A DNA stretch of 64,000 nt, from positions 124,001 through 188,000 of the forward strand of contig MKVQ01000042.1 in assembly GCA_001899635.1 (NCBI GenBank). Reading direction: 5' to 3'. Made by a program: the position numbers and the translations under genes. The notes under the pieces are model-generated. The model worked only from the letters and a program-made list of their open reading frames with translations. It had not been told where the DNA came from and did not search any database. The number at the start of each line of letters is the position of its first letter. The stretch's first letter is position 1. Source of the stretch: Myxococcales bacterium 68-20. Its GTDB lineage: Bacteria > Myxococcota_A > Polyangia > Polyangiales > Polyangiaceae. Shown here in pieces: positions 18,781 to 36,912 of the stretch.

Positions 18781-18907
18781 CGTCTCGTCCAATCCGGGAG
18801 CCATTCGGTTCAACATGCGCATGATCCTGCGTCCTCGATCAGGCCTCACTCCATCTTCTCCCGCTCCTGTTCCTGCTCCCGCGCCGCGGCCGCGCAATAC
18901 GCGGAGC

Positions 18908-20530
18908 ATGCGGCCCGTCGCGTCGCTCGCGCTTCTCTCGATCGTCTCCTCGATCTCGGTCGGCGCGTGTGGCAGCTCGGATCGCTCCGGGTTCGACGGA
19001 GAGGCAAACGGCGGCTTCGACAACGATGGCGGAGTGGAGAAGGAGCTCGATCGGGATCCGATCACGTGCGCCGAGGCAACGCAGGCTCGGACATACGTGG
19101 GATGCGACTACTGGCCCACCGTGACAGGCAACGTCGTTCCCGACGTCTTCGACTTCGCGGTCGTCGTCTCGAACAGCGGACAGACGGAAGCGAACGTGAA
19201 GGTCACCGGGCCGAACGACTTCACGGTCGAGGTGAAGGTCGCCCCCGGCACGCTCGAGAAGGTGTTCTTGCCCTGGGTGCCCGCGTTGAAGGGAGACGGG
19301 ATCGTCGTCGTCAATCAGGCGACGCCGTTCTCGTCATCGGTCCTGGCGCGCAAAGGCGCATACCACTTGGTGAGCTCCGTTCCCGTCGTCGTCTACCAGT
19401 TCAACCCGCTCGAATATGCGGGCAAGGGAGGACCGCCGGGCAAGAGCTGGTCGGAATGTCCTGAGCTCGGCGGGCCCGGGAGCGGATGTTTCAGCTACTC
19501 GAACGACGCTTCGCTCCTGTTGCCGAGCACCGGCTGGACCGGAAACTACCGCGTGCTCGGCATGCATGGCTGGAGCAACGTGACCCCGCAAGGAACATCG
19601 CAGCCCTTGCTCGGCTCCTACGCCGCGATCACGGCATCGCAAGACGGAACCAAGGTGAAGGTCGCGCTCGGCGCCAAGGCGAAAGTCCTCGCCGGCCAGG
19701 GCATCGCCGCCGGTGGTCCCGGTAAGGTGATCGAGATCGCTCTCGACGCCGGAGACGTTGCGCAGATCGTGACGGAGAAGGGCGACCAGTTCGAGCTCTC
19801 GGGCTCGCTCGTCCAGTCAAACAAGCCGGTTCAGGTCATCTCCGGCGTCCAGTGCATCAACGTCCCGGCCGACACCCCCGCCTGCGATCACGTCGAGGAG
19901 TCGGTCCTGCCCGCGGAGGCCCTCGGCAAGAAATACGTCGTGACCACGCCGACGCGTCCGAGCGGCACTCCCGGCCTCCACGTCGTCCGCTTCGTCGGCA
20001 ACCGCGACGACACCAAGCTCACCTATGCGCCGTCGAAGCCTGCTGGCTGTCCCGACAGGCTTTCCGCTGGTGAGGTCGCGCAGTGCGATGGTCCCGTCTC
20101 GACTGACTTCGTCGTCAGCGGAACGCAGGAGTTCGGCATCGCGACGTTCATGGTCGGCGCGGCGATGTACGAGGCCTCGAACCGGAAGGCGAAGGGCGAT
20201 CCGTCACAGACGGTCTTCGCCTCGACGGAGCAGTTCCGGACGAGCTACCTCTTCCTCACCCCCGACGACTACGACATCAGCTACGCGGTGATCGTCGGAC
20301 CGGAGAGGGCGAACCCGGTCCTCGACGGCGTAGCGCTCACGGGCTTCGAGCTGCTCGCCGAAGGCTTCGGCGTCTGGCGCACGACGCTCGCGCGTGGCAA
20401 AAACGGCGCTCATACGTTGAGCGCGTCGTTTCCGGTCGGTCTCCAGGCGATGGGCTATGGCGCGTTCACGAGCTACCAGTTCCCGGGCGGCCTCGACGTG
20501 AAGCGGATCGCTCCGCCGCCGCCGAAGTGA
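18908..20530 (+). CDS. Cassette A gene 9: IgGFc-binding-type lipoprotein
   Basis: The product (540 aa from this start) has a signal peptide with lipobox VGAC and a short linker. A long beta-rich domain follows with the marks of the IgGFc-binding protein N-terminal family: YVGCDYWPTVTGN at the start, then DFAVVVSNSGQTEANVKVTG, PVVVYQFNPLEY, DASLLLPSTGWTGNY, QVISGVQCINVP and HVEESVLPAEALGKKYVVTT-type strands. Known bacterial members are secreted and uncharacterised, probably adhesive. An upstream in-frame ATG at 18815 would add a Pro-rich extension before the signal peptide and is less likely, because the cassette B homologue begins directly at the signal peptide. Confidence 0.85.
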   Translation: MRPVASLALLSIVSSISVGACGSSDRSGFDGEANGGFDNDGGVEKELDRDPITCAEATQARTYVGCDYWPTVTGNVVPDVFDFAVVVSNSGQTEANVKVTGPNDFTVEVKVAPGTLEKVFLPWVPALKGDGIVVVNQATPFSSSVLARKGAYHLVSSVPVVVYQFNPLEYAGKGGPPGKSWSECPELGGPGSGCFSYSNDASLLLPSTGWTGNYRVLGMHGWSNVTPQGTSQPLLGSYAAITASQDGTKVKVALGAKAKVLAGQGIAAGGPGKVIEIALDAGDVAQIVTEKGDQFELSGSLVQSNKPVQVISGVQCINVPADTPACDHVEESVLPAEALGKKYVVTTPTRPSGTPGLHVVRFVGNRDDTKLTYAPSKPAGCPDRLSAGEVAQCDGPVSTDFVVSGTQEFGIATFMVGAAMYEASNRKAKGDPSQTVFASTEQFRTSYLFLTPDDYDISYAVIVGPERANPVLDGVALTGFELLAEGFGVWRTTLARGKNGAHTLSASFPVGLQAMGYGAFTSYQFPGGLDVKRIAPPPPK

Positions 20531-20593
20531 GCGCCGCGTTCCGCTCTTCTCGCCCTCGAGCACGTTGAGCCCCTCATGCCCTCGGAGGCGGCA

Positions 20594-22123
20594 TCACGTT
20601 GAGCCGAACCTGGCTCGGAGCTCGCGCTTCAAGAGCTTGCCGGCCGTGTTCTTCGGCAGCGCCTCGACGAAGTGGACTCGCTTCGGGACCTTGAACGGCG
20701 CGAGCCGTGCCCGGGCGTGCTCGACGAGCGCGACCTCGTCGACGACGGCCCCCTCACGGAGCACGACAACCGCGGTGACCGCCTCGATCCATTTCGGATC
20801 GGGGACCGGGATGACGGCGACCTCACGCACCGCCGGATGCAGGAACAGCGTCTCCTCGACCTCGCGTGAGGAGACGACGACGCCGCCGCTCTTGATGATG
20901 TCCTTCTTGCGGTCGACGATCGTGATGTACCCCTCTTCGTCGATGCGGGCGAGGTCACCCGAATGGAACCACCCGCCCGCGAACGCCTCCTCGGTCTCGG
21001 CGGGCTTGTCCCAGTAGCCGAGGCAGAGCTGAGGCGACCGGTAGACGACCTCACCGACCTCGCCGGGCTTCACGTCGTTCATGTCGTCGTCGACCACACG
21101 TAGATCGACGAAGGGGATCGCGCGCCCCGCCGAGGCTGGCCGCGCCTCGTGCTCCTCCGGGCGAAGCACCGTCGCGAGCGGACCGATCTCCGACTGCCCG
21201 AAGCAGTTGAAGAAACGGAGCTCCGGCAAGAGCTCGCGCAGCCGCTCGAGCACCGGCGTCGGCATGATCGACGCGCCGTAGTACGCTTTTCGCAGGTCGC
21301 GCACGCGGCCGGCGTTGTTCTCGATCAACGCGAGGAGCGCGATCCAGACGGTTGGCGCAGCGAAGAACGCGTCGATGGAGTGGTCCGCGATCGCCGCGAG
21401 GACACGCGCGGGATCGGGCGCCTCGAGCAGCCAGTTCGGCGCCCCGAGCATCAGCGACGGCATCATGAACACGTGCATCTGCGCCGAGTGGTAGAGCGGC
21501 AGCGCGTGGAGCTGCCGCTCCGACGCGCGCGCGTCGACCGCCAGTGCAGCGGACGCGTAGTGGAACACGAGCGCCCGGTGCGTGAGCATCGCCCCCTTCG
21601 GCTCGCTCGTGGTGCCGGAGGTGTAGAGGATCTGCGCAAGGTCCTCGTCGTCGACTTCGACCTCGAGCGCCGGCACGGGGCCGTCGCCCCGACTCCACGC
21701 GAGGACGTCGCGATCGCCCGCGCCATCCCGAAGCGAGCCGACGATCTCGAGCGAGACGCCGCACTCGTCGACCGCTGCACGGAGCGCGCGGTCCGTGAAG
21801 ACGGCTCGCGCCCCGGACTGCCGAAGGATGTACGCAAGCTCTCGTCCGGTCAGTGCGAAGTTGACGGGGACGTGGACGAGCCCGGCCTTCACGACGGCGA
21901 GCCAGAGGATCACGTACGCGTCCGAGTTCTTGCCGAACGCGGCGACGCGGTCGCCCTTGCGAAGGCCCGCCGCCAGCAGTGCAGCGGCGACACGCGTGCT
22001 GGCCTCGTCGAGCTGGCGGTACGTCCAGCTCCGCTCGTCGAAGCTCAGAGCCATCGCGTTCGGCACACGCCGCGCGCTGCGCCGGATCACGTCCCCCACG
22101 GTGCTTCGATTGGTGGCGTCCAT
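20594..22123 (-). CDS. Fatty-acid/acyl-CoA ligase (ANL superfamily)
   Basis: The 509-aa product has the adenylating-enzyme motifs: the P-loop ILYTSGTTSEPKGAMLTH (about 165-182), LPLYHSAQMHVF, NCFGQSEIGPLA, the ATP-ribose GWFHSGDLARIDEEGYITI, the hinge DRKKDIIKSGG and the C-terminal catalytic Lys in LPKNTAGKLLKRELR. This is the pattern of medium/long-chain acyl-CoA synthetases that activate a carboxylate as acyl-AMP and then transfer it to CoA. The ATG at 22123 gives normal family length; the frame stays open further upstream only as shadow of the divergent gene. It is convergent with cassette A. Confidence 0.9.
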   Translation of the reverse strand: MDATNRSTVGDVIRRSARRVPNAMALSFDERSWTYRQLDEASTRVAAALLAAGLRKGDRVAAFGKNSDAYVILWLAVVKAGLVHVPVNFALTGRELAYILRQSGARAVFTDRALRAAVDECGVSLEIVGSLRDGAGDRDVLAWSRGDGPVPALEVEVDDEDLAQILYTSGTTSEPKGAMLTHRALVFHYASAALAVDARASERQLHALPLYHSAQMHVFMMPSLMLGAPNWLLEAPDPARVLAAIADHSIDAFFAAPTVWIALLALIENNAGRVRDLRKAYYGASIMPTPVLERLRELLPELRFFNCFGQSEIGPLATVLRPEEHEARPASAGRAIPFVDLRVVDDDMNDVKPGEVGEVVYRSPQLCLGYWDKPAETEEAFAGGWFHSGDLARIDEEGYITIVDRKKDIIKSGGVVVSSREVEETLFLHPAVREVAVIPVPDPKWIEAVTAVVVLREGAVVDEVALVEHARARLAPFKVPKRVHFVEALPKNTAGKLLKRELRARFGST

Positions 22124-22237
22124 CGTTCGAAATCCTAACGACCGCACCCCCATCGTGAAAGGCAGCCAGCGGCAGAGCTCGTCGACCGCAACGAAGGATG
22201 CGTCCCATGCATCGAAGCCGTGTAGATGTAGACATCG

Positions 22238-23170
22238 ATGACGTCGCGCAGCGCAGGAGGCCTCGCGCTCGCCGTGATCGCTCTGGCGAGCGGCTGCGGG
22301 ACCGATGCGGGACGGCGTGGTCCCGCCCCTGCCCCTGCGCGCGCCGAGACGCGCGGACCGGAGCGGCTCGCGCTTCGCTACGATCGGCATCTTCCGAGCG
22401 TGCCGGTGTTGCTCGACGGCTACCTCGACGCGCGGTTCGCCTTCAACACCGGGATCGGGCTCAACCTCGTCTCGAAGTCGCTCTGCAAGATGCTCGAGTG
22501 CGTGAGCGCGGGAACGTACGTCGGCAAGCGTATGTCCGGTCAGCAGGTCACAGTCCCTCTCGCCAAGGTCCGATCGCTCGCCGTCGGCCACGAGGAGCAA
22601 CGCGACGTCGTCGTCGGAGTCATCGACCTCGACGGGTTCGTCGATGCACGGGACATCCAGGGCTTCGTGTCGCTCGGATTCTTCGCTCATCGCCCCTTCA
22701 CGCTCGACGAGCGACAGAGCGAGCTCGTGCTCGAAGACGAGGCGTCGCTCGAGAGGCGCGTCGCGGGTGGCACGGTGGTGAACGTCGACGTCCGGCGCGA
22801 AGGCGAGAGCCTGACGGTGTTCCTTCCGCTCGAGATCGCCGGGCAGGCCGTCCTCGCGGAGGTCGACACCGGCAGCGACGCGCTCATCCTCGACGAGCGC
22901 TTCATGGCGCCGCTCGGCATCGACAAGGCGCAGGCGAGGGTCGTCGAAGGCCGCGACGAGACCGGGCACGCCTTCACGCGCTGGTTCACCGATCTCAGCG
23001 TCGCCGTCCACCCGGCGGGCGCGCCCGCGATCCATCGAACGGGCCTCCGGACGATGTTCCAGAAGATCATCCACGACGGGCTCGTCGGCCGCACGTTCCT
23101 CGAGCCGTATGCCGTCACGTTCGATCTGGCGCGCCAACGGATGGTGTTCGCGCCGCACGCACCTCGTTAG
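22238..23170 (+). CDS. Retropepsin/pepsin-like aspartyl protease-fold lipoprotein
   Basis: The 310-aa product has a signal peptide with lipobox ASGC. Two related half-domains follow. The second contains EVDTGSDALILDERF, the active-site DTG of aspartyl proteases followed by the usual hydrophobic-hydrophobic pair and a late LVGRTFLEPYAVTFDL flap/strand. The first has FNTGIGLNLVSKS at the equivalent place, with Asn where the catalytic Asp should be. A single complete DTG could act as a homodimer, as retropepsins do, or the protein may be non-catalytic. It is divergently transcribed from the acyl-CoA ligase. Confidence 0.75.
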   Translation: MTSRSAGGLALAVIALASGCGTDAGRRGPAPAPARAETRGPERLALRYDRHLPSVPVLLDGYLDARFAFNTGIGLNLVSKSLCKMLECVSAGTYVGKRMSGQQVTVPLAKVRSLAVGHEEQRDVVVGVIDLDGFVDARDIQGFVSLGFFAHRPFTLDERQSELVLEDEASLERRVAGGTVVNVDVRREGESLTVFLPLEIAGQAVLAEVDTGSDALILDERFMAPLGIDKAQARVVEGRDETGHAFTRWFTDLSVAVHPAGAPAIHRTGLRTMFQKIIHDGLVGRTFLEPYAVTFDLARQRMVFAPHAPR

Positions 23171-23362
23171 CGCGCGCACGGCCCGGCGCAGCTACGGCGA
23201 ACCGTGAGCTGCTTGCCGATGGCTTCGTCAGCCGCGCCGTTCGTCGGACCGAGGCAGGCCAACGGAGAATTTTCCGTTCGTCCTAGACGCTCCGATGAGA
23301 ACGCCGGCAAGGACTGGACGCGGACTCCGTCGAGATGGACGATGGCCTTTGGGGCGATAGGG

Positions 23363-23746
23363 ATGAAGAAGCTCGGCGACATGGGAGCGAACCCGACGAT
23401 CCAGATCGACGTGGTCGATCTGGACGAGGTGAGGCTCGAAGCGATGATTGCAGAGGCTCCCGCCTCGACGCCGACGCTCGGCCGCTCGCTGCCTCCGCCG
23501 CTACCTCCATCGGCCTTGGAGTCTCGACAGCCTCCCGCGACGTCGGTAGCGGAGGCGCCGCGGCGCTCGAACCTCGTTCTCGTCCTTGCGCTGGTCGCGT
23601 GCCTCGCTGTCAGCTTCGGAGTGGTCGCTCTCCTGCGAATGCGCAGCGCCGCTGCACCGACGCCGGCGCCGAATCCGACGACCTCCCCGTCGGTCATCAC
23701 GGTCCCGACCGTCGACATGAACGACGAGACGCCAGCCGCGCGCTGA
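23363..23746 (+). CDS. Small single-pass membrane protein
   Basis: The 127-aa product has a soluble N-terminus (GANPTIQIDVVDLDEVRLEA), a Pro-rich stretch, and one membrane span near 75-97 (LVLVLALVACLAVSFGVVAL) followed by a Pro/Thr-rich external tail. The start is uncertain: 23363 has a GGG-rich box, and 23342 is an alternative ATG. A frame on the opposite strand is open too, but it is Arg/Ser-rich and looks like shadow. The family is not recognised. Confidence 0.5.
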   Translation: MKKLGDMGANPTIQIDVVDLDEVRLEAMIAEAPASTPTLGRSLPPPLPPSALESRQPPATSVAEAPRRSNLVLVLALVACLAVSFGVVALLRMRSAAAPTPAPNPTTSPSVITVPTVDMNDETPAAR

Positions 23747-24112
23747 GCTGTCGGCGACCGTCGCTCCGACCTCAGGGACGCACTCGCACGGCGCGAGTCA
23801 GGTACCTGCACGCCGCACGAAGTCCACCGCAGGCGCACTGCCGCGACATGCGAACGTCGCACGTCGATCCTCCTGCCGCATTCCCTCGTGCCGCGCGCAG
23901 ACCTCGACGCCACGCGTTGGAAGAGACGAGGTCGTCGACAGGTTGCGTCGGGTGGAGCGACGCCCATGGACGACGACCGCAACATCCGGACGGACATGGC
24001 GGAGCCGCGCACCCCCGACGGCACGACTCGACGAGGCGATGTTCACGTCGATCGCGTCCATCGCGCAGATGCTGAACATCCTGCCGCCGAAGATGAGGAC
24101 CGCCCGACCGCG
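23747..24112. other. 366-bp gap before the acetoacetyl-CoA synthetase gene
   Basis: No complete gene is visible. A plus-strand frame around 24030-24100 reads LDEAMFTSIASIAQMLNIL with consistent G/C third positions and could be a coding scrap, but it runs into Arg-rich nonsense at once. The gap should also hold the promoter of the thiotemplate operon; none was identified by eye. Confidence 0.35.
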
Positions 24113-26098
24113 ATGGAGGCGATCGGGAGCACGTCCGTCTCGACTGCGCGGGCGCTGTGGGCTCCCACGGCCGAGCGCATCGCGAAGACCGCGATGGCCG
24201 CGTTCCGCTCCGCCGCGTCGCGCGAGGCCGGCGTGAGCCTCGAAGATCCGTCCGCTCTGCACCGCTGGTCGATCGCGCACCCAGAGCAGTTCTGGCCGCT
24301 CCTCTGCAAGCACGTCGGCCTCTGCTTCGTCGATCCGCCGGTCGAGGTCACGAGTGACGAGGCGATGCCGCGCACGCGGTGGTTCCGCGGAGGAACGCTC
24401 AACTACGCGCAGCACCTCCTCGACGGAGTGGACGACTCCGCCACCGCGATCATCGCCGTCGACGACGACCATCGGACGCGCACGGTGACGTTCGGCGAAC
24501 TGCGGGCGGAGGTCGGACGCGCCGCGGCCGTGCTGGATCGGTTCGGCGTCGTGCCCGGCGACCGTGTTGCCGCCTACCTTTCGAACGGCGTGGAGGCGGT
24601 CGTCGTGCTCCTCGCATGCGCCTCGCGTGGCGCAGTGTTCACGAGCTGCTCGCCGACGATGGGCGCCCCGGCGACGATCGACCGCTTCGCGCAGGTCGAC
24701 CCAAAGGTGTTCTTCGTGACCGACGGCTACTGGAGCGCCGGCAAGTATCACCGGAGCGACGCCGAGAGGCTGGTGGAAGCGCTGCCGACCGTGCAGCACG
24801 TCGTGTGCGTTCCGGGCCGCGACGATGTCACCTCCGCATTTCCTTCGTGGAAGGACGTCGTGCAGACCGCGGAGCCCGCGCTGCGCTTCGTCCCACTCCC
24901 CTTCGATCATCCGCTCTACATCCTCTACACGTCGGGGACGACCGGGCTACCGAAGTGCATCGTCCACCGCGCCGGCGGCGCACTCCTCACGCATCTGAAG
25001 GAGCACCGGATCCACTGCGACATCCGTAAAGAGGACGTCGTCTTCTTCCAGACGAACACCGGCTGGATGATGTGGAACTGGCTCGTCTCGGCGCTCGCGT
25101 CGCAAGCGACCATCGTGCTCTTCGGCGGAACGCTCTTCCACCCCTCGCGCGACGCTCTCTGGCGGCTCGCTGACCGGCTCGGCGTCACCCACTTCGGCAC
25201 GAGCGCGACGCACATCCACAGCTCTCTGCGCATCGACATGCGCCCGCGCGAGATCGCCGGGCTCGACGCCCTCCGCTGCGTCATGTCCACCGGCTCGCCG
25301 CTCTCACCCGAGGGCTTCGAGTGGGTGTACTCGGCAGTGAAGGACGACGTTCATCTCGCGAGCATCAGCGGAGGCACGGACATCGTCGGCTGCTTCATGC
25401 TGGGCGACCCCACACGTCCGGTGTACGCCGGGCAGATCCAGGGTCCCGCTCTCGGCGTCGATCTCTGCGCCTACGACGAGGCGGGCGCGCCGGTCATCGG
25501 CACGGCGGGTGAGCTCGTGTGTCGTCGTCCCCTGCCCTCGATGCCCCTGCGCCTCTGGAACGACGACGGAGACACCAAGTACGTCGAGACGTACTTCGCG
25601 AAGTACCCGGGCATCTGGCGTCACGGCGACCGCATCGAGATCACGCCGGAGGACGGCATCATCGTCTGGGGCCGTAGCGACGCCACGCTGAAGCCGGGCG
25701 GCGTCCGCGTCGGGACGGGTGAGATCTACCGCGCGCTGGAGGACGTACCGGAGGTCGTCGAGGCCCTCGCCGCCGGAAAGGAAGACGGCCATGACGTCGC
25801 GATTTGGCTCTTCGTCGTATTGAGACCGGGTGCCATGCTCGATCGCCAGCTCCGGCAGCGGCTGAGCAATGTCGTGCTCAAGCGCACGACGGCGCAGCAC
25901 GTTCCGAGCGGCATCTTCCACGTCGCCGCTCTTCCGCGAACGCACAGCGGCAAGCTCATGGAGCTCGCGGCGACGCACGTCATCAATGGGCGAAACCTCG
26001 ACAACCTCTCGGCCATCGCGAACCCGGAGACGTTGACGGCGCTCGCCGTCGCTGCCGGCGTCACGCCGCCACGCTCGCTCGGGGGGAGCTCGTCATGA
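24113..26098 (+). CDS. Acetoacetyl-CoA synthetase-like acyl-CoA ligase
   Basis: This 661-aa protein has the length and order of acetoacetyl-CoA synthetases. An N-terminal domain carries ALWAPTAERIAKTAM and WFRGGTLNYAQHLL, followed by YILYTSGTTGLPKCIVHRAG (P-loop), SGGTDIVGCF, HGDRIEITPEDGIIVWGRSD and a C-terminal domain with RTHSGKLMEL carrying the catalytic Lys. The enzyme would use ATP and CoA to activate acetoacetate or a similar short oxo-acid. It is the first gene of a five-gene operon (ATGA overlap with the next gene) that also encodes carrier proteins and a thioesterase, so here it may supply an acyl-CoA starter for carrier-bound chemistry rather than serve in ketone metabolism. The start at 24113 fits family length. 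Confidence 0.9.
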   Translation: MEAIGSTSVSTARALWAPTAERIAKTAMAAFRSAASREAGVSLEDPSALHRWSIAHPEQFWPLLCKHVGLCFVDPPVEVTSDEAMPRTRWFRGGTLNYAQHLLDGVDDSATAIIAVDDDHRTRTVTFGELRAEVGRAAAVLDRFGVVPGDRVAAYLSNGVEAVVVLLACASRGAVFTSCSPTMGAPATIDRFAQVDPKVFFVTDGYWSAGKYHRSDAERLVEALPTVQHVVCVPGRDDVTSAFPSWKDVVQTAEPALRFVPLPFDHPLYILYTSGTTGLPKCIVHRAGGALLTHLKEHRIHCDIRKEDVVFFQTNTGWMMWNWLVSALASQATIVLFGGTLFHPSRDALWRLADRLGVTHFGTSATHIHSSLRIDMRPREIAGLDALRCVMSTGSPLSPEGFEWVYSAVKDDVHLASISGGTDIVGCFMLGDPTRPVYAGQIQGPALGVDLCAYDEAGAPVIGTAGELVCRRPLPSMPLRLWNDDGDTKYVETYFAKYPGIWRHGDRIEITPEDGIIVWGRSDATLKPGGVRVGTGEIYRALEDVPEVVEALAAGKEDGHDVAIWLFVVLRPGAMLDRQLRQRLSNVVLKRTTAQHVPSGIFHVAALPRTHSGKLMELAATHVINGRNLDNLSAIANPETLTALAVAAGVTPPRSLGGSSS

Positions 26099-27078
26099 TC
26101 GAGACATTCGACCTGACCCCGAGCCACGTCGGGCTCGGCGACCTGAACGAGTTCGCGCTGCTCACGCTCGTCGCAAACACGCACTATCGCATCCTCACCC
26201 AGGGCACCGACGCCACGCCTCGCGAGATCTTCGACAAGTCCGGCGAGGCCCTCTACCCGAGCGTCTTCGCGCTGCACCTCCGGGCTCCGATCGCGCGTCC
26301 GATCGAGGCGCACGCCCTCTGGGAGAAGCTCAGCGTCGGGGCGGACGTGCGTTGTTTCGGGCGGAGCTTCCTCGACGTGCGCGGCGTGATCGGGAGGGCC
26401 GGTGAGGTCCCTGAGACGCCGGAGACGTGGGCCCGCGCTCCGCTTCCGAGCGTGAGCTGGGCGGGGGCGTGGACGCTGAAGGGCGAGGTGGCGATGCCCG
26501 CGCCGACCTTCGTCGAGAACGTGCCTCGCGCCGCGGCGCCGCCCGAGCTCCTCTCGCTGTTCCGCGCGGTCCAGTCGAGAGGCATCATCGCCGAAGCGGA
26601 GGGACCATCGGCCCCGAGCGCGCCCGTCCTCTACCCGGTCGAGGCCGGGCGCGACGTCGCGCGCGGTCGGCAGATGATGTTCTCGCAGTTCGTCGTCGTG
26701 ATGGACCACGCGGAGCGCGTCTTCCTCACCGAGCGCGTGTGGCCCGCGTTCCCATGCGAGCTCGTCGAATGCCGTACGACGCTCGAGCGACGCATCTTCT
26801 ACTTCGGGAACTGCCGAGCCGACGACGTCATCGAGACCGTCGTCGAGGCGCGCCTCGAGAAGATCGCATCGCCCTCCGGCGAGGACCTTCCCTTCGTGCC
26901 GAGTGCCGTCGTCACGCTCACGATGGCGCTAACCGACAAGCGCTCTCGGCGGCTGGTCGCCCTGTGCGAGACGAGGAAGCTGCTCGCGATCCCCAGAACG
27001 CAGGCCGGGCTCATTCGTGAGGCCGCGCGGATGTTCGCTCGCCACGGCGAGCACACTCCGATGAAGGAGCAAAAGTAG
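26095..27078 (+). CDS. LnmK / Pnap_2097-like hot-dog biosynthetic protein
   Basis: The 327-aa product opens with LTPSHVGLGDLNEFALLTLV, resembling the LnmK/Pnap_2097-type N-terminal pattern (L-x-P-x-x-x-G-x-x-x-L-N-E-x-x-L) of double hot-dog proteins in thiotemplate clusters. LnmK itself is a bifunctional acyltransferase/decarboxylase that loads propionyl onto an acyl carrier protein from methylmalonyl-CoA. A second half with SWAGAWTLKGEVAMPAPTFV and a late VTLTMALTDKRSRRLVALCE fits the second hot-dog unit. The neighbours are an acyl-CoA synthetase, two carrier proteins and a thioesterase, which fits loading of a carrier protein. The assignment is by pattern and context. Confidence 0.6.
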   Translation: MIETFDLTPSHVGLGDLNEFALLTLVANTHYRILTQGTDATPREIFDKSGEALYPSVFALHLRAPIARPIEAHALWEKLSVGADVRCFGRSFLDVRGVIGRAGEVPETPETWARAPLPSVSWAGAWTLKGEVAMPAPTFVENVPRAAAPPELLSLFRAVQSRGIIAEAEGPSAPSAPVLYPVEAGRDVARGRQMMFSQFVVVMDHAERVFLTERVWPAFPCELVECRTTLERRIFYFGNCRADDVIETVVEARLEKIASPSGEDLPFVPSAVVTLTMALTDKRSRRLVALCETRKLLAIPRTQAGLIREAARMFARHGEHTPMKEQK

Positions 27079-27080
27079 TC

Positions 27081-27344
27081 ATGAACATCGAGAAGCTCGT
27101 TCACGAGAAGGTGCTTGCGGTCGTACGTCTGCGGCGGCCGCATGCCCGGGCCGTCACGGCCGACCAGGAGCTGCGCGGAGACCTCGGGCTCGACTCGCTC
27201 GACCTCGCTCAGCTGGGCGCCGAGATCGAGACCGCGCTCGACGCACCGATCTTCGAGGAGGTCGCCGTCGGCGCCGTCCTCACGATCGGGGACCTGACGG
27301 CCATCTGCGAGGAGACCCTCGCCAAGTTGAAGCGGGCGAGCTGA
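27081..27344 (+). CDS. Acyl carrier protein
   Basis: The 87-aa product is a free-standing acyl carrier protein: four helices, with the phosphopantetheine attachment serine in DLGLDSLDLAQLGAEIE, in agreement with the D-S-L consensus. The residue after DSL is D rather than the V/I found in fatty-acid-synthase ACPs, which suggests a specialised carrier. It starts 2 nt after the LnmK-like gene and overlaps the thioesterase gene (TGATG), so it is in the same operon. Confidence 0.93.
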   Translation: MNIEKLVHEKVLAVVRLRRPHARAVTADQELRGDLGLDSLDLAQLGAEIETALDAPIFEEVAVGAVLTIGDLTAICEETLAKLKRAS

Positions 27345-28303
27345 TGGCACCGGACGCGACCAAGGATCTCCTCCTCGCGCTGTTACGCCAGCAGGAGACT
27401 CCGGCCGAGGCGAAGGGCGACGCCGACCCCTTCGACGGCAGCCTCGTGCGCCTCCAGCCGGCGGGGAAGAAGCGCCCCTTCTTCTGCGTTCATCCGGCCT
27501 CCGGCACTGTCGGCGTGTTCCTCGAGGTCGCCCAGATGATCGATCCCGAGCGCCCGTTCTTCGCCTTCCAGCCGCCCGGGGTCGATGGAGAGTGCGACCC
27601 CTTCTTCGATCTGCGCGTGCTCGCGAGCGGCTACGTGCGCCAGATGCGGAAGGTACAGCCGAAGGGACCCTACACCTTCGGCGGCTGGTCGGTGGGCGGG
27701 TTGATCGCCTTCCAGATGGCACACGAGCTGCGGGCATCGGGCGAAGAGGTGGACCTCCTGGTGCTCTGCGACACCGCGAACAGCGAGGTCTTCACTGCCC
27801 TGCCGTACACACGCCAGGAGATCGCCAAGTTCGTCCATCAGCAAATGGCGCTGATGGTCGCGCATCTCGCGCAGCAGCGTGGGATGGTCTTCGACGTGAC
27901 CGGAGCGCTCGACCGGATCGAGGCCGTCAAACAACGCTCGCTCCGATCGCGCGCCGAGTTGATCTTCGAGCTGCTGCAGGAGGCGGGGGTGTTCCGCTCG
28001 CTCGACAAGCGGCTCTTCGACGTCTTCCGCAAAGTCTTCCGCGCGAACCTCGTCGCGGTTGCGCGCTACGACGCGCCGGCGGAGCCGCTCGACGCTACGA
28101 TCACCCTCCTCCGCTGCGAGAACGAGGAGTTCGTCCTGAAGCTCGCCGAGGTCACCCCCTCGTACGGGTGGGCCCCCAAGACGACCCGCCCTGTCGACGT
28201 GATCGACATGCCCTCCCATCACTATGCGCTGTTCCACGGCGACGTAGCCCCCATCACTGCTCGAACGCTGAGGAGCCTGCTCGACGCGGCCGATCGACCA
28301 TGA
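27344..28303 (+). CDS. Type-I/II thioesterase (alpha/beta hydrolase)
   Basis: The 319-aa product matches the thioesterase family that releases acyl chains from carrier proteins. It has FFCVHPASGTVGVFLEVA (the oxyanion region), the nucleophile elbow GGWSVGGLIAFQMAHEL with Ser in GWSVGG, and an acid followed by a late His in DMPSHHYALFHGD (catalytic His). Free-standing domains of this type occur in NRPS/PKS clusters as proof-reading or chain-release enzymes. It overlaps the ACP gene at its start and the second carrier gene at its end (ATGA). Confidence 0.9.
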   Translation: MAPDATKDLLLALLRQQETPAEAKGDADPFDGSLVRLQPAGKKRPFFCVHPASGTVGVFLEVAQMIDPERPFFAFQPPGVDGECDPFFDLRVLASGYVRQMRKVQPKGPYTFGGWSVGGLIAFQMAHELRASGEEVDLLVLCDTANSEVFTALPYTRQEIAKFVHQQMALMVAHLAQQRGMVFDVTGALDRIEAVKQRSLRSRAELIFELLQEAGVFRSLDKRLFDVFRKVFRANLVAVARYDAPAEPLDATITLLRCENEEFVLKLAEVTPSYGWAPKTTRPVDVIDMPSHHYALFHGDVAPITARTLRSLLDAADRP

Positions 28304-28638
28304 ACGACATTCCCCAGACCACTTCGCTGCTCGACACGCTGGCCGGCTTCTTCGCCCAGGCGCTCGGGCGTCCCTCGTTTGCGCTCTCCGACAGCTTCTT
28401 CGCCGCCGGCGGAGACTCTCTCGGCGCCGCAGACGTGCTCATGAGGATCGACGAGACCTTCCACGTCGAGCTCAAGTTCCGCGACATCCTCGAGGCGCCG
28501 ACTCCGCTCCGCCTCGCGCTGACGATCCTGCGCGTCCGCGCGAAGGCGGCGAGCCACGATCTGGCCGCCGAGCTCTCCACGCTCTCGAGCGAGGACGCGA
28601 GCAGGTTGCTCGCGCACCTGCAAGGACCGACGCCATGA
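28300..28638 (+). CDS. Peptidyl/acyl carrier protein (NRPS-type)
   Basis: The 112-aa product is a second carrier protein of a different type. FFAAGGDSLGAADVLMRIDE carries the attachment Ser in GGDSL, the consensus of peptidyl carrier domains in nonribosomal peptide synthetases. The tail is rich in Ala/Leu/Ser. The ATG overlaps the thioesterase stop. An operon with one DLGLDSL-type and one GGDSL-type carrier, an acyl-activating enzyme, an LnmK-like protein and a thioesterase, but with no ketosynthase or condensation domain in this window, is unusual. Confidence 0.9.
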   Translation: MNDIPQTTSLLDTLAGFFAQALGRPSFALSDSFFAAGGDSLGAADVLMRIDETFHVELKFRDILEAPTPLRLALTILRVRAKAASHDLAAELSTLSSEDASRLLAHLQGPTP

Positions 28639-28678
28639 ACGCGTAGTCGACGTCGAGGTCGGCGCTCCAACCGTCCCG

Positions 28679-29839
28679 TCATGTCAGCTTGTACGATCGG
28701 GCGCCCGTCCCGGCGAGCTTGCCGCCTTCGACGATCAGATACTCCGGCCGAATCGGCTGCCCCGCGAAGAAGGCCTGGAGGATCTCCAGCGTGCCCGCCG
28801 CGTAGCGCGCCTGCGCCGACAGTGTGGTGCCGGCTATGTGCGGGGTCATTCCGTTGAACGGCATGCGTCGCCAAGGATGGTCGGCAGGCGCCGGCTGCGG
28901 GAACCAAACGTCGCCGGCGTAGCCTGCCAAACGGCCCGACTCGAGCGCTCGCACGACAGCGTCGCGATCACACAGCTTGGCGCGTGCCGTGTTGACGAGA
29001 TAGCTGCCGCGCTTCATCCGCGCGAACATATCGTCGTTGAACACGTGCTCGGTGGACGGATACAGCGGCATCTGGAGGTTCACCACGTCGCAAACGGAGA
29101 CGAGCGACTCCGGGGAGTCGTGGTACGTCACCTTCAGCTCGGTCTCCAGCTCCGGGATCAGTCGATGCGGGTCGTAGTAGTGGAGGTGGAGGTCGAACGG
29201 CGCGAGCCGACGTAGCACCGCGAGGCCGATGCGACCGGCGCCGACCGTGCCGAAGTGCATCCCCTCCACGTCGTAGCTGCGAGCGACGCAGTCGGCGATG
29301 TTCCAACCGCCTTCGACCGCGTATCGGTGTGACGGAAGGTAGTTGCGCACGAGCGAGAGCACCATCATCACGACGTGCTCGGCCACGCTGATCGAGTTGG
29401 AGTAGGTCACCTCGGCGACCGTGATCCCGTGCCCGGCGGCGGCCTTCAGATCGACGTGGTCGGAGCCGATTCCGGCGGTCACGACCAGCGCGAGCTTCTT
29501 CGCCCGGGCGATCCGCTCGGCCGTGAGATAGACGGGCCAGAACGGCTGCGAGATGACCACGTCCGCATCCGGCAGGTGGCGCTCGAACGCCGAGCTCTCA
29601 CCGTCTTTGTCGCTCGTGACGAGCAGCTCGTGCCCATTGCGCTCGAGATAGGGACGAAGGCCGAGCTCGCCGGAGACGCATCCGACCAGCTCACCGGGCT
29701 TGAAGCCGAGCGGGCCGTCCGGCGTGGGAGCCGTCTGCCCGTTCGGGTAGCGGCTGATCGTCGGAATGGTGTCGCGCGCGTAGTCGGGCGGATAGCCAGC
29801 GACGGGATCGGGATAGAGCACACAGACGACCTTGGCCAC
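28679..29839 (-). CDS. fdh: NAD-dependent formate dehydrogenase
   Basis: The 386-aa product is a D-2-hydroxyacid dehydrogenase-family enzyme of the formate dehydrogenase branch. It begins MAKVVCVLYPDPVAGYPP, as in the Pseudomonas enzyme, and has the Rossmann motif GTVGAGRIG, SNSISVAEH (substrate Asn), NTARAKLCDRDAV (Arg), DVWFPQPAPADHPW (Gln) and MTPHIAGTTLSAQARYA (catalytic His). These are all the residues known to be needed for hydride transfer from formate to NAD. The C-terminus EYLIVEGGKLAGTGARSY is specific to this branch. It is convergent with the thiotemplate operon and has no obvious partner subunits, as expected for the metal-free enzyme. Confidence 0.95.
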   Translation of the reverse strand: MAKVVCVLYPDPVAGYPPDYARDTIPTISRYPNGQTAPTPDGPLGFKPGELVGCVSGELGLRPYLERNGHELLVTSDKDGESSAFERHLPDADVVISQPFWPVYLTAERIARAKKLALVVTAGIGSDHVDLKAAAGHGITVAEVTYSNSISVAEHVVMMVLSLVRNYLPSHRYAVEGGWNIADCVARSYDVEGMHFGTVGAGRIGLAVLRRLAPFDLHLHYYDPHRLIPELETELKVTYHDSPESLVSVCDVVNLQMPLYPSTEHVFNDDMFARMKRGSYLVNTARAKLCDRDAVVRALESGRLAGYAGDVWFPQPAPADHPWRRMPFNGMTPHIAGTTLSAQARYAAGTLEILQAFFAGQPIRPEYLIVEGGKLAGTGARSYKLT

Positions 29840-30364
29840 GGCCGGGCTCCTTTCTGCGCTGCCTGCGGCTCCGTCGAACGCAGTCGAATCACGCGCTCCG
29901 CGCCGCTACGAGAAAGGTCGGCGCTGCACGACGCATACCGTGGAGCAAGGACGACGTTTCCCCGACACGGCGGCCGACCTCGATCCGCCCTCGCTGTTGA
30001 CGCGGCTGTGCGCTCGACGCGCTTCCGCACGGTCCGGTACGCGCGCCTGCTCGCCTCCGCGAGCACGCTGCGGCCTCATCATTCCGAAGCCTCGAAGCCT
30101 CCTGACGCGCTGCCCGCGCCGACCAACGGAACGGTCCATTCGGCGTGTACGTCTGCGGCATCGACAAGGATGCGAGCTACGCCCCCTCGCTCGGGGTCAC
30201 GGCCACGCGCCGAAATCGCTCCTGAACGACCTACGTGCTCAGCTTGGCGGCCTCACTTCGGGCTCTGCCGTTTGCGACCCAGGCGACCAGTTTGTTCACA
30301 CATCTAGTTTTAGTCGCTCAGGCATGAGCGACACGACCCATATGCCACACTGAAGGACGCTTTC
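29840..30364. other. 525-bp gap with a gene remnant and the edge of an AT-rich patch
   Basis: No intact gene is visible. The stretch 30130-30225 carries the IgGFc-type remnant listed separately. From about 30290 the base composition becomes noticeably AT-rich and continues through the small gene at 30365-30577. The part next to 29839 should hold the formate dehydrogenase promoter, which I could not recognise. Confidence 0.5.
30130..30225 (+). pseudogene. 3-prime fragment of an IgGFc-binding-type gene
   Basis: The frame starting at 30130 reads 31 codons, NGPFGVYVCGIDKDASY then APSLGVTATRRNRS and a TGA at 30223-30225. The last part of the cassette B IgGFc-type protein reads NGPFGLYVWGVDSFASY at the corresponding place. 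Thirteen of these 17 residues are the same by my count, including NGPFG, the YV pair and ASY. The fragment has the same strand as both cassettes and lies between them. It is most simply the remains of a third, deleted copy. Only this short piece is recognisable. Confidence 0.55.
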
Positions 30365-30577
30365 TCAGTTTTCCAAAAGCCACTTTACGCCCACGATGAA
30401 CATGACAATGACCGAGATCACATACTTTATTCTAATACCATGCCCCTTTCTGTAGGCGACATAGATACCTACAGACATCAGGGCCGCAATGGCCACAATG
30501 AACCACCCAAACATGGAAGCATCTCCAAGCTTTATCTCCATCGGATTGGTTTTCCCATAAAGGATGGTTCCGATCAA
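30365..30577 (-). CDS. Small two-span membrane protein in an AT-rich islet
   Basis: The 70-aa frame has two membrane spans (MFGWFIVAIAALMSVGIYVA and YVISVIVMFIVGVKWLL) separated by a basic loop (YRKGHGIRIK). The base composition is unlike its neighbours: my hand count over 30361-30540 gives about 45% G+C in a genome that is otherwise clearly above 60%. The start is uncertain: a TTG at 30577 has AAAAAGG 7 nt upstream, while an internal ATG at 30514 has a TTGGAG box and would give a 49-aa protein. The frame also happens to be the same as kdpC after its stop codon. I do not recognise the family; foreign origin is likely. Confidence 0.55.
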   Translation of the reverse strand: MIGTILYGKTNPMEIKLGDASMFGWFIVAIAALMSVGIYVAYRKGHGIRIKYVISVIVMFIVGVKWLLEN

Positions 30578-30605
30578 CCGAACCTTTTTGCCTTCGTCAT
30601 CATGA

Positions 30606-30641
30606 CCGTGGACGACCCACGCGCTCTACGCGCCTCCACGG
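30606..30641 (-). terminator. Inverted repeat at the end of the kdp operon
   Basis: CCGTGGA (30606-30612) and TCCACGG (30635-30641) are perfect 7-bp arms around a 22-nt loop that contains the kdpC stop codon. There is no T-tract on the minus strand after it, so termination is only suggested by position. Confidence 0.3.
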
Positions 30642-31246
30642 TCGAGGCGATCGAGCGCCAGGTTCAGGAGTAGAACGTTCACGCGCGGCTCGCCGAGGAC
30701 ACCGAGGTCGCGGCCCTCGGTGTGCGCGGCCACGAGCTCCCTCACGCGCTCCTCCGGCAAGCCGCGAGCACGTGCCACCCGGCGGAGCTGATAGGCGGCC
30801 GCGGCGGGCGAGATGTGCGGGTCGAGACCGCTGCCCGAAGCGGTGACGAGATCGATGGGGACCGGCGCAACGTTCTCCGGATCGACGGCACGAAGCGCCT
30901 CGACGCGATCCCGCGCGGCCTTCGTCAGCGCATCGTTCGTCGGTCCGAGGTTGCTGGCTGCGGAGGCCCCGGCGTTGTAGGGCACGGGGCTCGTGGCGGA
31001 GGGGCGGCCCCAGAAGTACTTCGGTTCCGCGAACGGCTGGCCGACGAGACGCGAGCCGATGACCTTGTCATCAAGGGCGATCAGGCTGCCGCGGGCTCGC
31101 TCGGGGAATGCGAGCTGCGCCACCGCAGTGACGAGCAGCGGATAGAGCACGCCGGTCAGAAGTGTGAGCACGGCGAGCATGCCGAGCGCTCGTCCGGCGA
31201 GCGACGCGACGGAGACGGGCGCAGGGGACTTCGGATCGGTGGACAT
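30626..31246 (-). CDS. kdpC: Potassium-transporting ATPase KdpC subunit
   Basis: The 206-aa product has one N-terminal membrane span ([20 protein letters not shown], about 15-37) and the conserved periplasmic domain: [21 protein letters not shown] quoted by elements ([17 protein letters not shown]), [12 protein letters not shown] and the C-terminal [15 protein letters not shown]. KdpC stabilises the KdpA-KdpB complex and is thought to raise ATP affinity. It is the last gene of the kdpF-A-B-C operon, 8 nt after kdpB. Confidence 0.97.
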
Positions 31247-31254
31247 GACGGACC

Positions 31255-33456
31255 TCAGGTCAGGTGGAGCACGACGAGGGCGAGATCGATCAGCTTGATG
31301 CCGATGAACGGCACGACGATCCCCCCCACGCCGAAGACGAGGAGATTCCGGCGAAGGAGCGCTCCCGCGCCGATGGGGCGGTAGGCGATGCCGCGAAGCG
31401 CGAGCGGGATGAGGAATACGATGACGAGCGCGTTGAAAATGACGGCGCTCAGGATCGCGCTCGCCGGCGTCGCCAGGTGCATGACGTTGAGCGCGTCGAG
31501 CCTCGGATAGGTGACGGCGAAGGCCGCCGGGATGATCGCAAAGTACTTCGCGATGTCGTTGGCGATGCTGAAGGTCGTGAGCGCACCGCGCGTCATGAGC
31601 ATCTGCTTTCCGATCTCGACGATCTCGATCAGCTTCGTCGGGTTCGAGTCGAGATCGACCATGTTGCCGGCCTCTTTGGCCGCCTGTGTCCCGGAGCTCA
31701 TCGCGACGGCCACGTCGGCCTGCGCGAGCGCGGGCGCGTCGTTGGTGCCGTCGCCGGTCATCGCGACGAGCCGGCCGCCGCTCTGCTGCTCGCGGATCAG
31801 CTTCAGCTTCGCTTCGGGGGTGGCCTCGGCAAGGTAGTCGTCGACCCCGGCCTCCGCGGCGATGGCAGCAGCGGTGAGCGGGTTGTCGCCCGTGATCATC
31901 ACCGTCTTGATCCCCATCCGCCGGAGCTCCGCGAAGCGCTCCTTGATGCCGCCCTTGACGATGTCCTTCAGCGCGACGACCCCGAGGACGCGCACCGCGC
32001 CCGATGCCGTCGGTGCGGGGGCCTCGACGACGACGAGCGGCGTACCGCCCTTCTTCGCGACCGCGCTCACGGTGGCCCGCACGGCCTCGGGGAACGTGCC
32101 GCCCCTGCCCTGGACGAACGCCTCCATCGCGTCCGACGAGCCCTTGCGAAGCTGGCGGTCGTCGACGTTCACACCGCTCATGCGCGTCTGCGCCGTGAAG
32201 GGAACGAACACGGCGCCGAGGTCGCGGATGCTCCGCTCCCGGATGGCGAACTTCTCCTTCGCCAGCACCACGATGCTGCGCCCCTCGGGGGTCTCGTCCG
32301 CCAGCGAGGCGAGCTGAGCGGCGTCGGCGAGCTCGAGGTCACCGATGCCGGGAGCCGGATGGAATGCAGCGGCCTGGCGGTTACCGAGCGTGATCGTGCC
32401 GGTCTTGTCGAGGAGGAGGACGTCGACGTCGCCCGCGGCCTCGACCGCGCGGCCGGACGTGGCGATGACGTTCGCCTGGATCATGCGGTCCATGCCGGCG
32501 ATGCCGATGGCGGACAAGAGGCCGCCAATCGTGGTCGGGATCAGGCAGACGAGGAGCGCGACGAGGACCGTCATCCCTACGGGCTGACCGGAGCCCGCCG
32601 CCTTCACGCTGAAGATCGAGAATGGGAGGAGCGTCGTCGTCGCGAGGAGGAAGACGACCGTGAGCGCGGCGAGCAGGATGTCGAGCGCGATCTCGTTCGG
32701 TGTCTTCTGGCGCTTGGCGCCCTCGACCATGGCGATCATCCGGTCGAGGAACGTCTGGCCTGGGTCCGCGGCGACCTTCACGACGAGCCAGTCCGAGAGG
32801 ATGCGCGTCCCCGCGACGACCGCGCTGCGATCGCCGCCGGCCTCGCGGATGACGGGCGCGCTCTCGCCCGTGATCGCGGCCTCGTTCACGGAAGCGACGC
32901 CCTCGATGACCTCGCCGTCGCACGGGATGTCGTCGCCAGCCTCGATGAGCACGATGTCCCCTTTGCGGAGGAGCGACGACGAGACGACCTCGACCGGCGC
33001 ATCACGCGCCGCCTCGGCGAGCTTCTTCGCCGGCGTGTCCCTCCGCGCCTGGCGGAGCGAGTCGGCCTGCGCCTTGCCGCGCCCCTCGGCCATCGCCTCG
33101 GCGAAGTTCGCGAAGAGGACGGTGAACCAGAGCCAGAGCGACACCCCGAGGATGAAGCCCGCCGGCGCCTCGCCCTCCCCGACGAGCGCGTCGACGAAGA
33201 GGAGCGTCGTGAGGATGCTCCCGACCTCGACGACGAACATCACCGGATTCCGGATCTGGTGTCGTGGGTCGAGCTTCTTGAACGAGTCGGCGATCGCTCG
33301 TCTCACGATCGGCCACTCGAACAGCTTTCGCTCGGACTGCTTGCGAGGCGGCCGTGCGACCGGCGGAAGCAGCGGCGCGAGCCTTGGCTGCGAGGTCGAA
33401 GCGGGCGAGTCGTCTGCCGTCGGTTCGGCAACGGGAGCGTGCGCCTTGCGGCTCAT
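31255..33456 (-). CDS. kdpB: Potassium-transporting P-type ATPase KdpB subunit
   Basis: This is the energising P-type ATPase of the high-affinity potassium pump, about 733 aa. It has TGESAPV (dephosphorylation loop), [12 protein letters not shown] (phosphorylated Asp), [10 protein letters not shown] and [21 protein letters not shown] (hinge), plus the expected membrane spans. I use the ATG at 33456, which has an AAGGAG box; an ATG eight codons upstream at 33480, one base after the kdpA stop, lacks a good box. The N-terminal extension of about 45 residues rich in Pro and Ala is longer than in Escherichia coli. Confidence 0.97.
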
Positions 33457-33481
33457 GGAGGTCTCCTTCGAGTGAGCCATG

Positions 33482-35227
33482 TCAGGACCCGTGAGCCATC
33501 AGGTGCTCGACGATCGGGCCGAGCGCGAGGGCGGGGATGAAGGTCAGAGCACCGACGACGATGATCACGCCGACGAGCATCACGACGAAGAGCGGGTCAT
33601 GCGTCGAGAGCGTTCCGCTCGATCGGGGTACGGACTTCTTCTTCACGAGCGAGCCCGCGATCGCGAGCACCGGCACGATCAGCCAGTAGCGCGCTCCGAA
33701 CATGCAGATGGCGCCGAGCGTGTCGTAGAAGGGCGTGTTCGCCGTGAGACCGGCGAAGGCGCTCCCGTTGTTGTTCGCCTGCGAGGAGAAGGCATAGAGG
33801 ATCTCGCTGAACCCGTGGGCGGAGGGGTTCGCGACGCCACGCTGGCCGGCGTCGGTCACGCAAGCGATCGCGGTCGCGACTAGGACGAGCGCGGGAGGAA
33901 CGAGGATGACGAGCGACGCCATCTTCATCTCGTACGCCTCGATCTTCTTACCCAGGTATTCGGGGGTGCGCCCGACCATCAGGCCGGCGATGAAGACCGC
34001 GACGATGGCGAAGACGAGGATGCCGTAGAGCCCGGACCCGGCACCGCCGAAGATGACCTCGCCGAGCTGCATCAGCCACATGGGGACGAGACCGCCGAGC
34101 GGAGTGAACGAGTCGTGCATCGCGTTCACGGAGCCGTTCGAGGCGGCGGTGGTCGCCGTGGCCCAGAGCGCGGAGTTCGTGATCCCGAAGCGGACCTCCT
34201 TCCCTTCCATGTTGCCGCCGGAATGGATCGCGCTCGCCGCCTGGTCGATCGGGAGGCCGGCCAGCGCAGGGTTGCCCGCTTGCTCCTGGGTCACGCAGAG
34301 CCAGAGCAGCGGAAGGAAGATCACGAACATCGCGGCGAGCAGGGCCCAGCCCTGCCGCGTGTCGCCGATCATCTTTCCGAACGTGTAACAGAGCGCCGCC
34401 GGGATGATGAGGAGCGAGAACATCTCGACGAAGTTCGAGAGCGGCGTCGGGTTCTCGAAGGGATGAGCCGAGTTGACGTTGAAGAAGCCGCCACCGTTCG
34501 TCCCGAGCTGCTTGATGATGATCTGGGAGGCCGCCGGCCCGACGCCGAACACCTGCTGGGTGACGGTGTTTCCGGCCGGGTCCTTCACCGCCTCGACGAG
34601 CGCGCCACTCGCGAACGGACCGAAGGTCTGCACGACGCCCTGCGACACGAGGAAGATCGCACCGACGATCGCGAGCGGCAGCAGGATGTAGAGCGTCGTC
34701 CGCGTCAGGTCGACCCAGAAGCTCCCAAGGGTCGACGCGCTCTTTCGCGAGAAGCCACGCACGAGCGCGATCAAGATCGCCATACCCGTCGCTGCAGAGA
34801 CGAAGTTCTGCACCGTGAGACCGATCATCTGCGTGAGGTAGCTGAGCGTCGTCTCGCCCCCGTAGCTCTGCCAGTTCGTGTTCGAGGCGAAGCTGACGGC
34901 GGTGTTGAAGGCGACGTCGGGAGCGACCGCTCCGAGGCCGGCGGGATTCAGCGGCAGCGATCCCTGCACGCGCGCGAGCAGGTAGACGAAGAGGAGCCCG
35001 GCGATGTTGAACGCCATCGCGGCGAGGGCGTACGTTTTCCAGGTCATCTCCTCGCCCGGATCGACGCGGACGACGCGGTAGACGAGCCGCTCGAGCGGCC
35101 CGAGCACACGCATCGCGAAGCGCGCTTCGCCCTCGTAGACGCGCGCCATGTAGCCGCCGAGCGGCTTCACCAGAAGGGCGAGCAGAGCGCAGTACAGCGC
35201 GATCTGGAGGAGGGCATTCGTGGTCAC
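33482..35227 (-). CDS. kdpA: Potassium-transporting ATPase KdpA subunit
   Basis: The 581-aa channel-like subunit resembles potassium channels of the MPM superfamily. It has ten or so membrane spans and the selectivity-filter-like segments [56 protein letters not shown] and [12 protein letters not shown], each with the Gly/Asn pattern of the four filter loops. It starts with GTG overlapping the kdpF stop (GTGA). Together with KdpB, KdpC and KdpF it pumps potassium into the cell at micromolar external levels. Confidence 0.97.
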
Positions 35228-35316
35228 GAGAACCTCTCCGGCTTCAGCATCGCGAACACGAGATAGAACAGGAGGCCGACCGCCACGGCGGCCCCCACGG
35301 CATGGAAGATGGGCAT
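35224..35316 (-). CDS. kdpF: KdpF small membrane subunit
   Basis: A 30-codon gene too short for most gene callers. It encodes one hydrophobic helix ([18 protein letters not shown]) followed by KPERF, the usual C-terminal signature of KdpF (xx-L-L-x-P-E-x-F). Its stop overlaps the kdpA GTG start, and it lies directly after a second tiny gene. KdpF is a lipid-like stabiliser of the Kdp complex. Confidence 0.88.
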
Positions 35317-35320
35317 GACG

Positions 35321-35410
35321 TCACTCCGGCCGGACCGAGTCGCAGAGGCGAATCAGACCGAGCGTCAGGGCGAAGAGAACGAGAGCCAGACCGACGAAGA
35401 CGATGTCCAC
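35321..35410 (-). CDS. 29-aa membrane peptide encoded before kdpF
   Basis: A GTG-started 29-codon frame with a GAGG box 8 nt upstream encodes one helix (DIVFVGLALVLFALTLGLIR) followed by LCDSVRPE. Similar tiny proteins with a C-D-x-x motif after a single span appear just upstream of kdpF in other bacteria, as far as I recall. It starts 65-90 nt downstream of a candidate KdpE box and is the first gene of the kdp operon. Confidence 0.7.
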   Translation of the reverse strand: MDIVFVGLALVLFALTLGLIRLCDSVRPE

Positions 35411-35474
35411 GGTGCACCTCGCACGTCGCAGCGCTTCTCCAGCGCCGCGCTTCCGTGAACCTAGCGAGAGCGGG

Positions 35475-35491: not shown

Positions 35492-35536
35492 GCTGCGTCA
35501 GTGAGATCGCAGCGAGCATCGTGCAGCGGACGTGCC

Positions 35537-36871: not shown

Positions 36872-36912
36872 CGTGGACTCCTTGGTCCGGCGTGTGCGCG
36901 AGGGCAAGAGCT

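Follow-up and report, generated by a model that had tools for sequence, protein, structure and literature searches.

The window, a stretch of 64,000 nucleotides (nt) from Myxococcales bacterium 68-20, corresponds to G000:C42:124001-188000 and lies on contig C42 (321 kb), one of 52 contigs that make up a genome of 11.9 Mb. It carries an operon of five intact genes (positions 24113-28638; Table 1) for an AACS-family acyl-coenzyme A (acyl-CoA) ligase, a protein resembling LnmK, an acyl carrier protein (ACP), a thioesterase (TE), and a peptidyl-type carrier protein (PCP). The genes are tightly coupled. ATGA overlaps join the ligase gene to the LnmK-like gene and the TE gene to the PCP gene, a TGATG overlap joins the ACP and TE genes, and a gap of 2 nt separates the LnmK-like gene from the ACP gene. 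An initial annotation of this DNA had described five overlapping or 2-nt-gapped genes with two types of carrier, and the open reading frames (ORFs) and junctions bear out that description.

Table 1. Genes of the operon, followed by its upstream and downstream neighbors (window positions)
Feature	Positions	Strand	Basis
AACS-family AMP-forming acyl-CoA ligase, 661 aa	24113..26098	+	TIGR01217 721.6 bits; best PDB match 4wd1
LnmK-like double-hot-dog protein, 327 aa, proposed CoA:ACP acyltransferase	26095..27078	+	TIGR04098 69 bits, fold comparisons
ACP, 87 aa, LGLDSL	27081..27344	+	PF00550 E 2.3e-6
Alpha/beta-hydrolase TE, 319 aa, type I TE-like but free-standing	27344..28303	+	PF00975 E 1.2e-26
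PCP, 112 aa, GGDSL	28300..28638	+	PF00550 E 5.4e-13
Unrelated AMP-binding ligase, upstream	20597-22243	-	
Aspartyl-protease-like gene, upstream	22238-23167	+	
Small ORF, upstream	23363-23743		no Pfam match
2-hydroxyacid dehydrogenase, downstream	28682-29839	-	
KdpC, downstream	30629-31246	-	Pfam

The same annotation regarded these genes as an orphan thiotemplate operon that lacks a ketosynthase or condensation enzyme, and this view holds. At E <= 0.001, the genome contains 18 matches to PF00109 (ketosynthase) and two to PF00668 (condensation), none of which is located on contig C42. Because the contig carries neither domain, the operon qualifies as an orphan, and we reject the idea that a full polyketide synthase (PKS) or nonribosomal peptide synthetase (NRPS) cluster surrounds it.

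All five genes recur in identical order in a second genome, a metagenome-assembled genome of Labilithrix sp. (contig JAHBWA010000234.1; locus L003), and the arrangement is therefore not a product of chance. There, the ligase is represented by its C-terminal 323 residues alone, cut by the contig edge, and a search of that genome for the missing N-terminus did not find it. Three junctions match those of the window, and the LnmK-like and ACP genes are joined by an ATGA overlap rather than a 2-nt gap. The five operon genes are 77-86% identical between the two loci, and the genes downstream from the operon differ. A simple Nei-Gojobori estimate for this one pair of genomes gave ratios of nonsynonymous to synonymous substitution (dN/dS) of 0.21 for the C-terminal part of the ligase, 0.22 for the LnmK-like protein, 0.41 for ACP, 0.27 for TE, and 0.45 for PCP, which indicates that purifying selection acts on all five genes. 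Matches to the LnmK-like protein (E <= 0.001) were found in two of 183 genomes of the order, both from the same genus, and its own genome holds a single match.

The ligase exceeds the curated cut-off of TIGR01217 (721.6 versus 520.9 bits), and its best match in the PDB is the acetoacetate-CoA ligase 4wd1 (E 1e-161), with which it shares the SGGTD motif. When aligned with 4wd1, the acetate-CoA ligase 8rpk, and homologs from Myxococcota, the window ligase retains SISGGTD (Gly420, 25370-25372) where 8rpk carries Trp-Trp. A tryptophan at this pocket position of acetyl-CoA synthetases limits the acetate pocket. The GWMMWNWL stretch and the C-terminal SGK lysine (Lys614 of HSGK, 25952-25954) are also retained. 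Family and motif suggest acetoacetate as the likely substrate. Membership of the exosortase-A-associated ligase family (TIGR03098) finds no support, as the window ligase scores 75.1 bits against a cut-off of 592.35.

Although the ligase shares with acetoacetate-CoA ligases its score over the family cut-off, the SGGTD motif, and the C-terminal lysine, it differs from them in lying on a long branch and in being cotranscribed with two carriers. A tree of 31 rows was built from the window copy, a second copy from the same genome (contig C48), and the next best 29 matches, some of them fragments; the L003 fragment was excluded. The end branch of the window ligase measures 1.63 in this tree, where the median is 0.36, and the tree program warned that it may be attracted to the other long branch, that of the C48 copy. 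AACS proteins are not rare in the phylum, matches at E <= 1e-110 being present in 94 of the 377 genomes sampled. Within the genus, TIGR01217 matches above 300 bits are confined to two of 12 genomes, namely those with the operon, and we therefore reject the view that AACS belongs to the core metabolism of this genus. Among the best 30 AACS loci of Myxococcota, surveyed across flanks of at most 1.5 kb with several contigs ending early, LnmK, ACP, or TE matches lie beside the window copy only; the flanks of the other 29 contain no match to LnmK, ACP, TE, or PCP.

The second gene product had been labeled "LnmK/Pnap_2097-like," with a proposed check by hidden Markov models of the TIGR04098 and TIGR04099 types. 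The first half of this label stands, in that TIGR04098 (LnmK) matches the protein at 69 bits (E 3.9e-19; curated cut-off 100, not reached) and fold comparisons agree. The second half does not, since the TIGR04099 score is negligible (19 bits versus a cut-off of 125) and membership of the Pnap_2097 family is rejected. Scores below the TIGR04098 cut-off are usual: only one of the 14 matching genomes in the phylum sample passes it. A control search with the same profile also matched in E. coli, again below the cut-off. No match was found when the LnmK-like protein alone was searched against the PDB with phmmer or against plasmids with tblastn. A profile made from 12 family members retrieves LnmK structures (E 2.6e-14).

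Structural models point in the same direction. The AlphaFold model of the window protein itself is poor (mean predicted local distance difference test score [pLDDT] 47.4), and LnmK structures occupy the top seven rows in Foldseek and VIA (Z 11.2-11.8; next family 10.2), the best aligning 227 residues with a root-mean-square deviation (rmsd) of 4.8. A homolog at locus L020, 23% identical to the window protein, yields a good model (pLDDT 82.6, predicted TM-score 0.85), which aligns with LnmK structure 6x7p over 292 residues (Z 28.9, rmsd 2.7, 16% identity); the next family scores 17.7. Taken together, the profile matches and the L020 alignment leave the predicted double-hot-dog fold well supported for the LnmK-like family, and homology makes it likely that the window protein shares this fold. 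The initial annotation had staked its reading on a hot-dog fold in this protein and was not refuted on that point.

In the sample of 377 genomes from the phylum, the 14 with TIGR04098 matches (E <= 0.001) comprise nine, the window genome included, that score 67.7-100 bits and five that score 19.5-25.3 bits. These five weak matches (L013-L017) were excluded from the alignments. At L013, L015, and L017 the matching gene, on visual inspection, seems to encode an ordinary hot-dog protein of small size, and at L014 and L016 the gene caller showed no small hot-dog gene. Further LnmK searches in another class (90 genomes) and one family (17 genomes) returned only known loci.

Two features of the LnmK-like protein bear directly on its possible chemistry. 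Tyr54 (26254-26256) is shared by all 12 aligned rows and, through the family profile, aligns with residue 62 of LnmK (6x7l), and does so weakly in another alignment. We take Tyr62 to be the acyl-transfer residue of LnmK. The second feature is a loop preceding the second hot-dog helix, where all 10 rows outside the operon pair carry D-x-N-G. LnmK has DVNG there, with the asparagine at position 216 of the 6x7l sequence as counted from alignments. Both operon copies have lost this asparagine: the window protein reads DVARG (Ala189, 26659-26661) and the L003 protein reads DAARG. In a tree of 11 rows, from which the truncated L024 protein was excluded, the inner branch leading to the operon pair has a saturated length of 4.61 changes per column and drew a long-branch warning. 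The pair is a distinct subgroup.

One paper identifies Asn45 of MadB, on a hot-dog loop, as critical for the decarboxylation of malonyl-ACP, and states that LnmK (printed as LmnK) relies for this reaction on an asparagine in a comparable loop (PMC8666670). We infer that the latter residue is the DxNG asparagine. It was not placed through MadA, because the family profile gave no meaningful alignment with E. coli MadA/YiiD. Given the loss of the loop asparagine and the asparagine-dependent decarboxylation described for LnmK, it is plausible that the window protein is a CoA-to-ACP acyltransferase that does not decarboxylate, the decarboxylation step having probably been lost. The initial annotation had expected decarboxylation from this protein, and on this point its prediction is not supported, given the asparagine-to-alanine change in both copies, though Tyr54 is kept. 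In those parts of the open-licence literature that were searched, a non-decarboxylating CoA:ACP acyltransferase function is assigned to no LnmK relative.

Both carriers retain the serine for phosphopantetheine attachment (ACP Ser39, 27195-27197; PCP Ser40, 28417-28419), and the genome has two matches to the phosphopantetheinyl transferase (PPTase) family. TE resembles the type I TE domains found in NRPS and PKS enzymes, with 7crn, EntF TE, and Pks13 TE among its PDB matches. Its candidate residues Ser116, Asp143, and His292 or His293 presumably form the catalytic triad, as known for the family.

We tentatively favor, at somewhat short of an even chance, a reading of the operon as a self-contained, dissociated pathway for acyl activation and carrier loading. 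In such a pathway, the ligase would produce a small acyl-CoA, for which acetoacetyl-CoA or a closely related compound is the likeliest candidate. The LnmK-like protein would accept the acyl group from CoA, probably on Tyr54, and hand it to the phosphopantetheine of ACP Ser39. This transfer would proceed without decarboxylation because the loop asparagine linked to that reaction is gone, which fits the ligase in that acetoacetyl-CoA, if this is the product, has no carboxylate to lose. PCP would serve as a second loading site, and TE would release the acyl group or pass it to an acceptor. Gene content and coupling, conservation of the set in two species, purifying selection, the retained and lost residues, and the lack of ketosynthase and condensation domains on the contig are observations; the substrates, the direction of flow, the loading of PCP, and the acceptor used by TE are all inferred. 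A small stand-alone acyl-carrier pathway, as the initial annotation put it, is plausible. A more specific version is rather unlikely to be correct in full, namely that the operon encodes a minimal beta-oxoacyl pathway. Here, a derived acetoacetyl-CoA ligase and a non-decarboxylating LnmK-type CoA:ACP acyltransferase would together supply a two-carrier assembly line free of ketosynthase and condensation domains, with the free-standing TE unloading it.

Beyond the operon itself, the two PPTase-family matches and a separate pair of genes elsewhere in the phylum count in favor of the self-contained pathway. At locus L024 (Myxococcota genome G450, 17277-19950), a carrier gene (PF00550 E 1.1e-10) lies 2 nt before an LnmK gene, inside which the contig ends, and a divergent acyl-CoA ligase is also present. 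Several observations weigh against this pathway. The operon is known from two genomes only, one of them cut inside the ligase gene, and the dN/dS values, from a simple estimate on one pair, are higher for both carriers. The long branch of the ligase could reflect a changed substrate, and acetoacetate is proposed from family and motif. The LnmK-like protein scores under its family cut-off and its own model is poor, and both the role of Tyr62 and the equation of the published LnmK asparagine with that of the DxNG loop are assumed. Lastly, no adenylation domain that could serve PCP is present inside the operon.

If the self-contained pathway is real, then natural variation separates acyl transfer from decarboxylation within the LnmK fold, offering a direct test of the loop residue that drives decarboxylation. 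Carrier-protein chemistry would also be seen to run as a five-gene unit with no ketosynthase or condensation domain, and cluster mining that is centered on these domains could miss such loci.

It is doubtful that the LnmK-like enzyme still decarboxylates. It would then form acetyl- or propionyl-ACP from malonyl- or methylmalonyl-CoA, the ligase would feed PCP separately, and the two carriers would meet through an enzyme encoded elsewhere. Homology to LnmK speaks for this arrangement, as does the ACP gene directly downstream, since lnmK and lnmL homologs are grouped in leinamycin-type clusters according to one report (PMC9396626). The window operon indeed resembles the LnmK/LnmL pair in combining a double-hot-dog enzyme that has the residue-62 tyrosine with an adjoining discrete ACP gene. 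However, the window protein falls below the family cut-off and the DxNG asparagine is lost in both operon copies. The window genes are grouped with AACS, TE, and PCP, with no PKS beside them and no HMG-CoA-synthase-like gene. A partner enzyme is absent from the operon, the rest of the genome not having been screened for HMG-CoA-synthase-like genes.

An equally improbable explanation is that the operon acts in trans as an accessory, for loading plus proofreading or release, to a PKS/NRPS locus on contig C48 (385281-400623). This uncharacterized assembly-line locus places side by side an ACP-like gene whose PF00550 score (19.3 bits) falls slightly short of the cut-off, a second AACS-family ligase (AACS2), and a protein with adenylation (A), ketosynthase (KS), acyltransferase (AT), PP-binding, and aminotransferase domains, and C48 holds both condensation-domain matches of the genome. 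The two loci are alike in that an ACP-like gene adjoins an AACS-family ligase. They differ in that the KS, AT, A, aminotransferase, and condensation domains belong to C48, whereas the sole LnmK-like match of the genome is that of the window. Moreover, they are on different contigs, and their AACS proteins are only 40% identical, both on long branches. In the second operon genome, 96% complete as given, no match reaches the level of AACS2 (622 bits), and this speaks against the operon and C48 being obligate partners. The C48 locus also includes a condensation-domain gene, an MBOAT-like gene, identified by reading alone, and two hydrolases weakly like exosortase-A-associated ones, below cut-off.

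We likewise see little probability that the operon is a decaying PKS/NRPS remnant, or a ketone-body AACS gene cotranscribed with leftovers. The absence of ketosynthase and condensation domains from the contig, the rarity of the operon in the order, and the lack of an adenylation partner for PCP within it could all be understood in this way. Yet the motif residues are intact in the carriers, TE, and AACS, dN/dS is <0.5 for every gene, and two species retain the block next to differing downstream genes; nor is AACS a core gene of the genus. Least probable of all is that, instead of an acyltransferase, the LnmK-like gene encodes a thioesterase or hydratase of the hot-dog type that acts on acyl-ACP: the loop residues have changed, and acyl-CoA and acyl-ACP thioesterases rank next after LnmK in the structural comparisons, at a short distance for the poor window model (Z 10.2 versus 11.8), but the good L020 model clearly favors LnmK and Tyr54 is invariant.

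Other loci that encode LnmK relatives give some idea of the settings in which this family occurs. In stretches of 8-20 kb around the eight other substantial LnmK loci of the phylum sample, no PKS or NRPS gene was recognized when gene calls were read and compared with the five window proteins, with no domain scan. The L020 protein matches two plasmid records, from Azospirillum argentinense and Roseobacter litoralis. In A. argentinense, the LnmK homolog has as neighbors a pair of very large proteins that carry the annotation SDR-family oxidoreductase, along with an enoyl-CoA hydratase, a phosphopantetheine-binding protein, and an ACP S-malonyltransferase; we read this locus as a PKS cluster. In R. 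litoralis pRLO149_63 (L079:14317-15774), a hexapeptide acyltransferase is fused to an LnmK domain within a polysaccharide locus, a hint that LnmK-type proteins may supply acyl groups for the acylation of sugars. This fusion, annotated as Pnap_2097 family, resembles the window system in having an LnmK domain and no annotated PKS in the locus, and differs in its polysaccharide context, its fused acyltransferase domain, and its preserved loop (DINGVG). Thus, as the initial annotation required, homologous loci do not always sit beside a PKS or NRPS cluster, as judged from the Roseobacter locus and from the Myxococcota loci as far as these were read.

Between positions 23600 and 29000, there are no promoter-like sites (0.2 in shuffles) and two terminator-like sites (1.2 in shuffles). 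ARAGORN called a 95-nt tRNA-Met on the minus strand at 23659-23753, overlapping the end of the small upstream ORF. This call is probably a false positive, because Rfam gives no match at the gathering level across 18000-32000. Farther downstream, the minus strand carries a Kdp potassium-transport region (30626-42408), in which KdpC is recognized by Pfam and KdpA, B, D, and E by reading alone. Two short ORFs in this region, 86 and 91 aa long, are unannotated.

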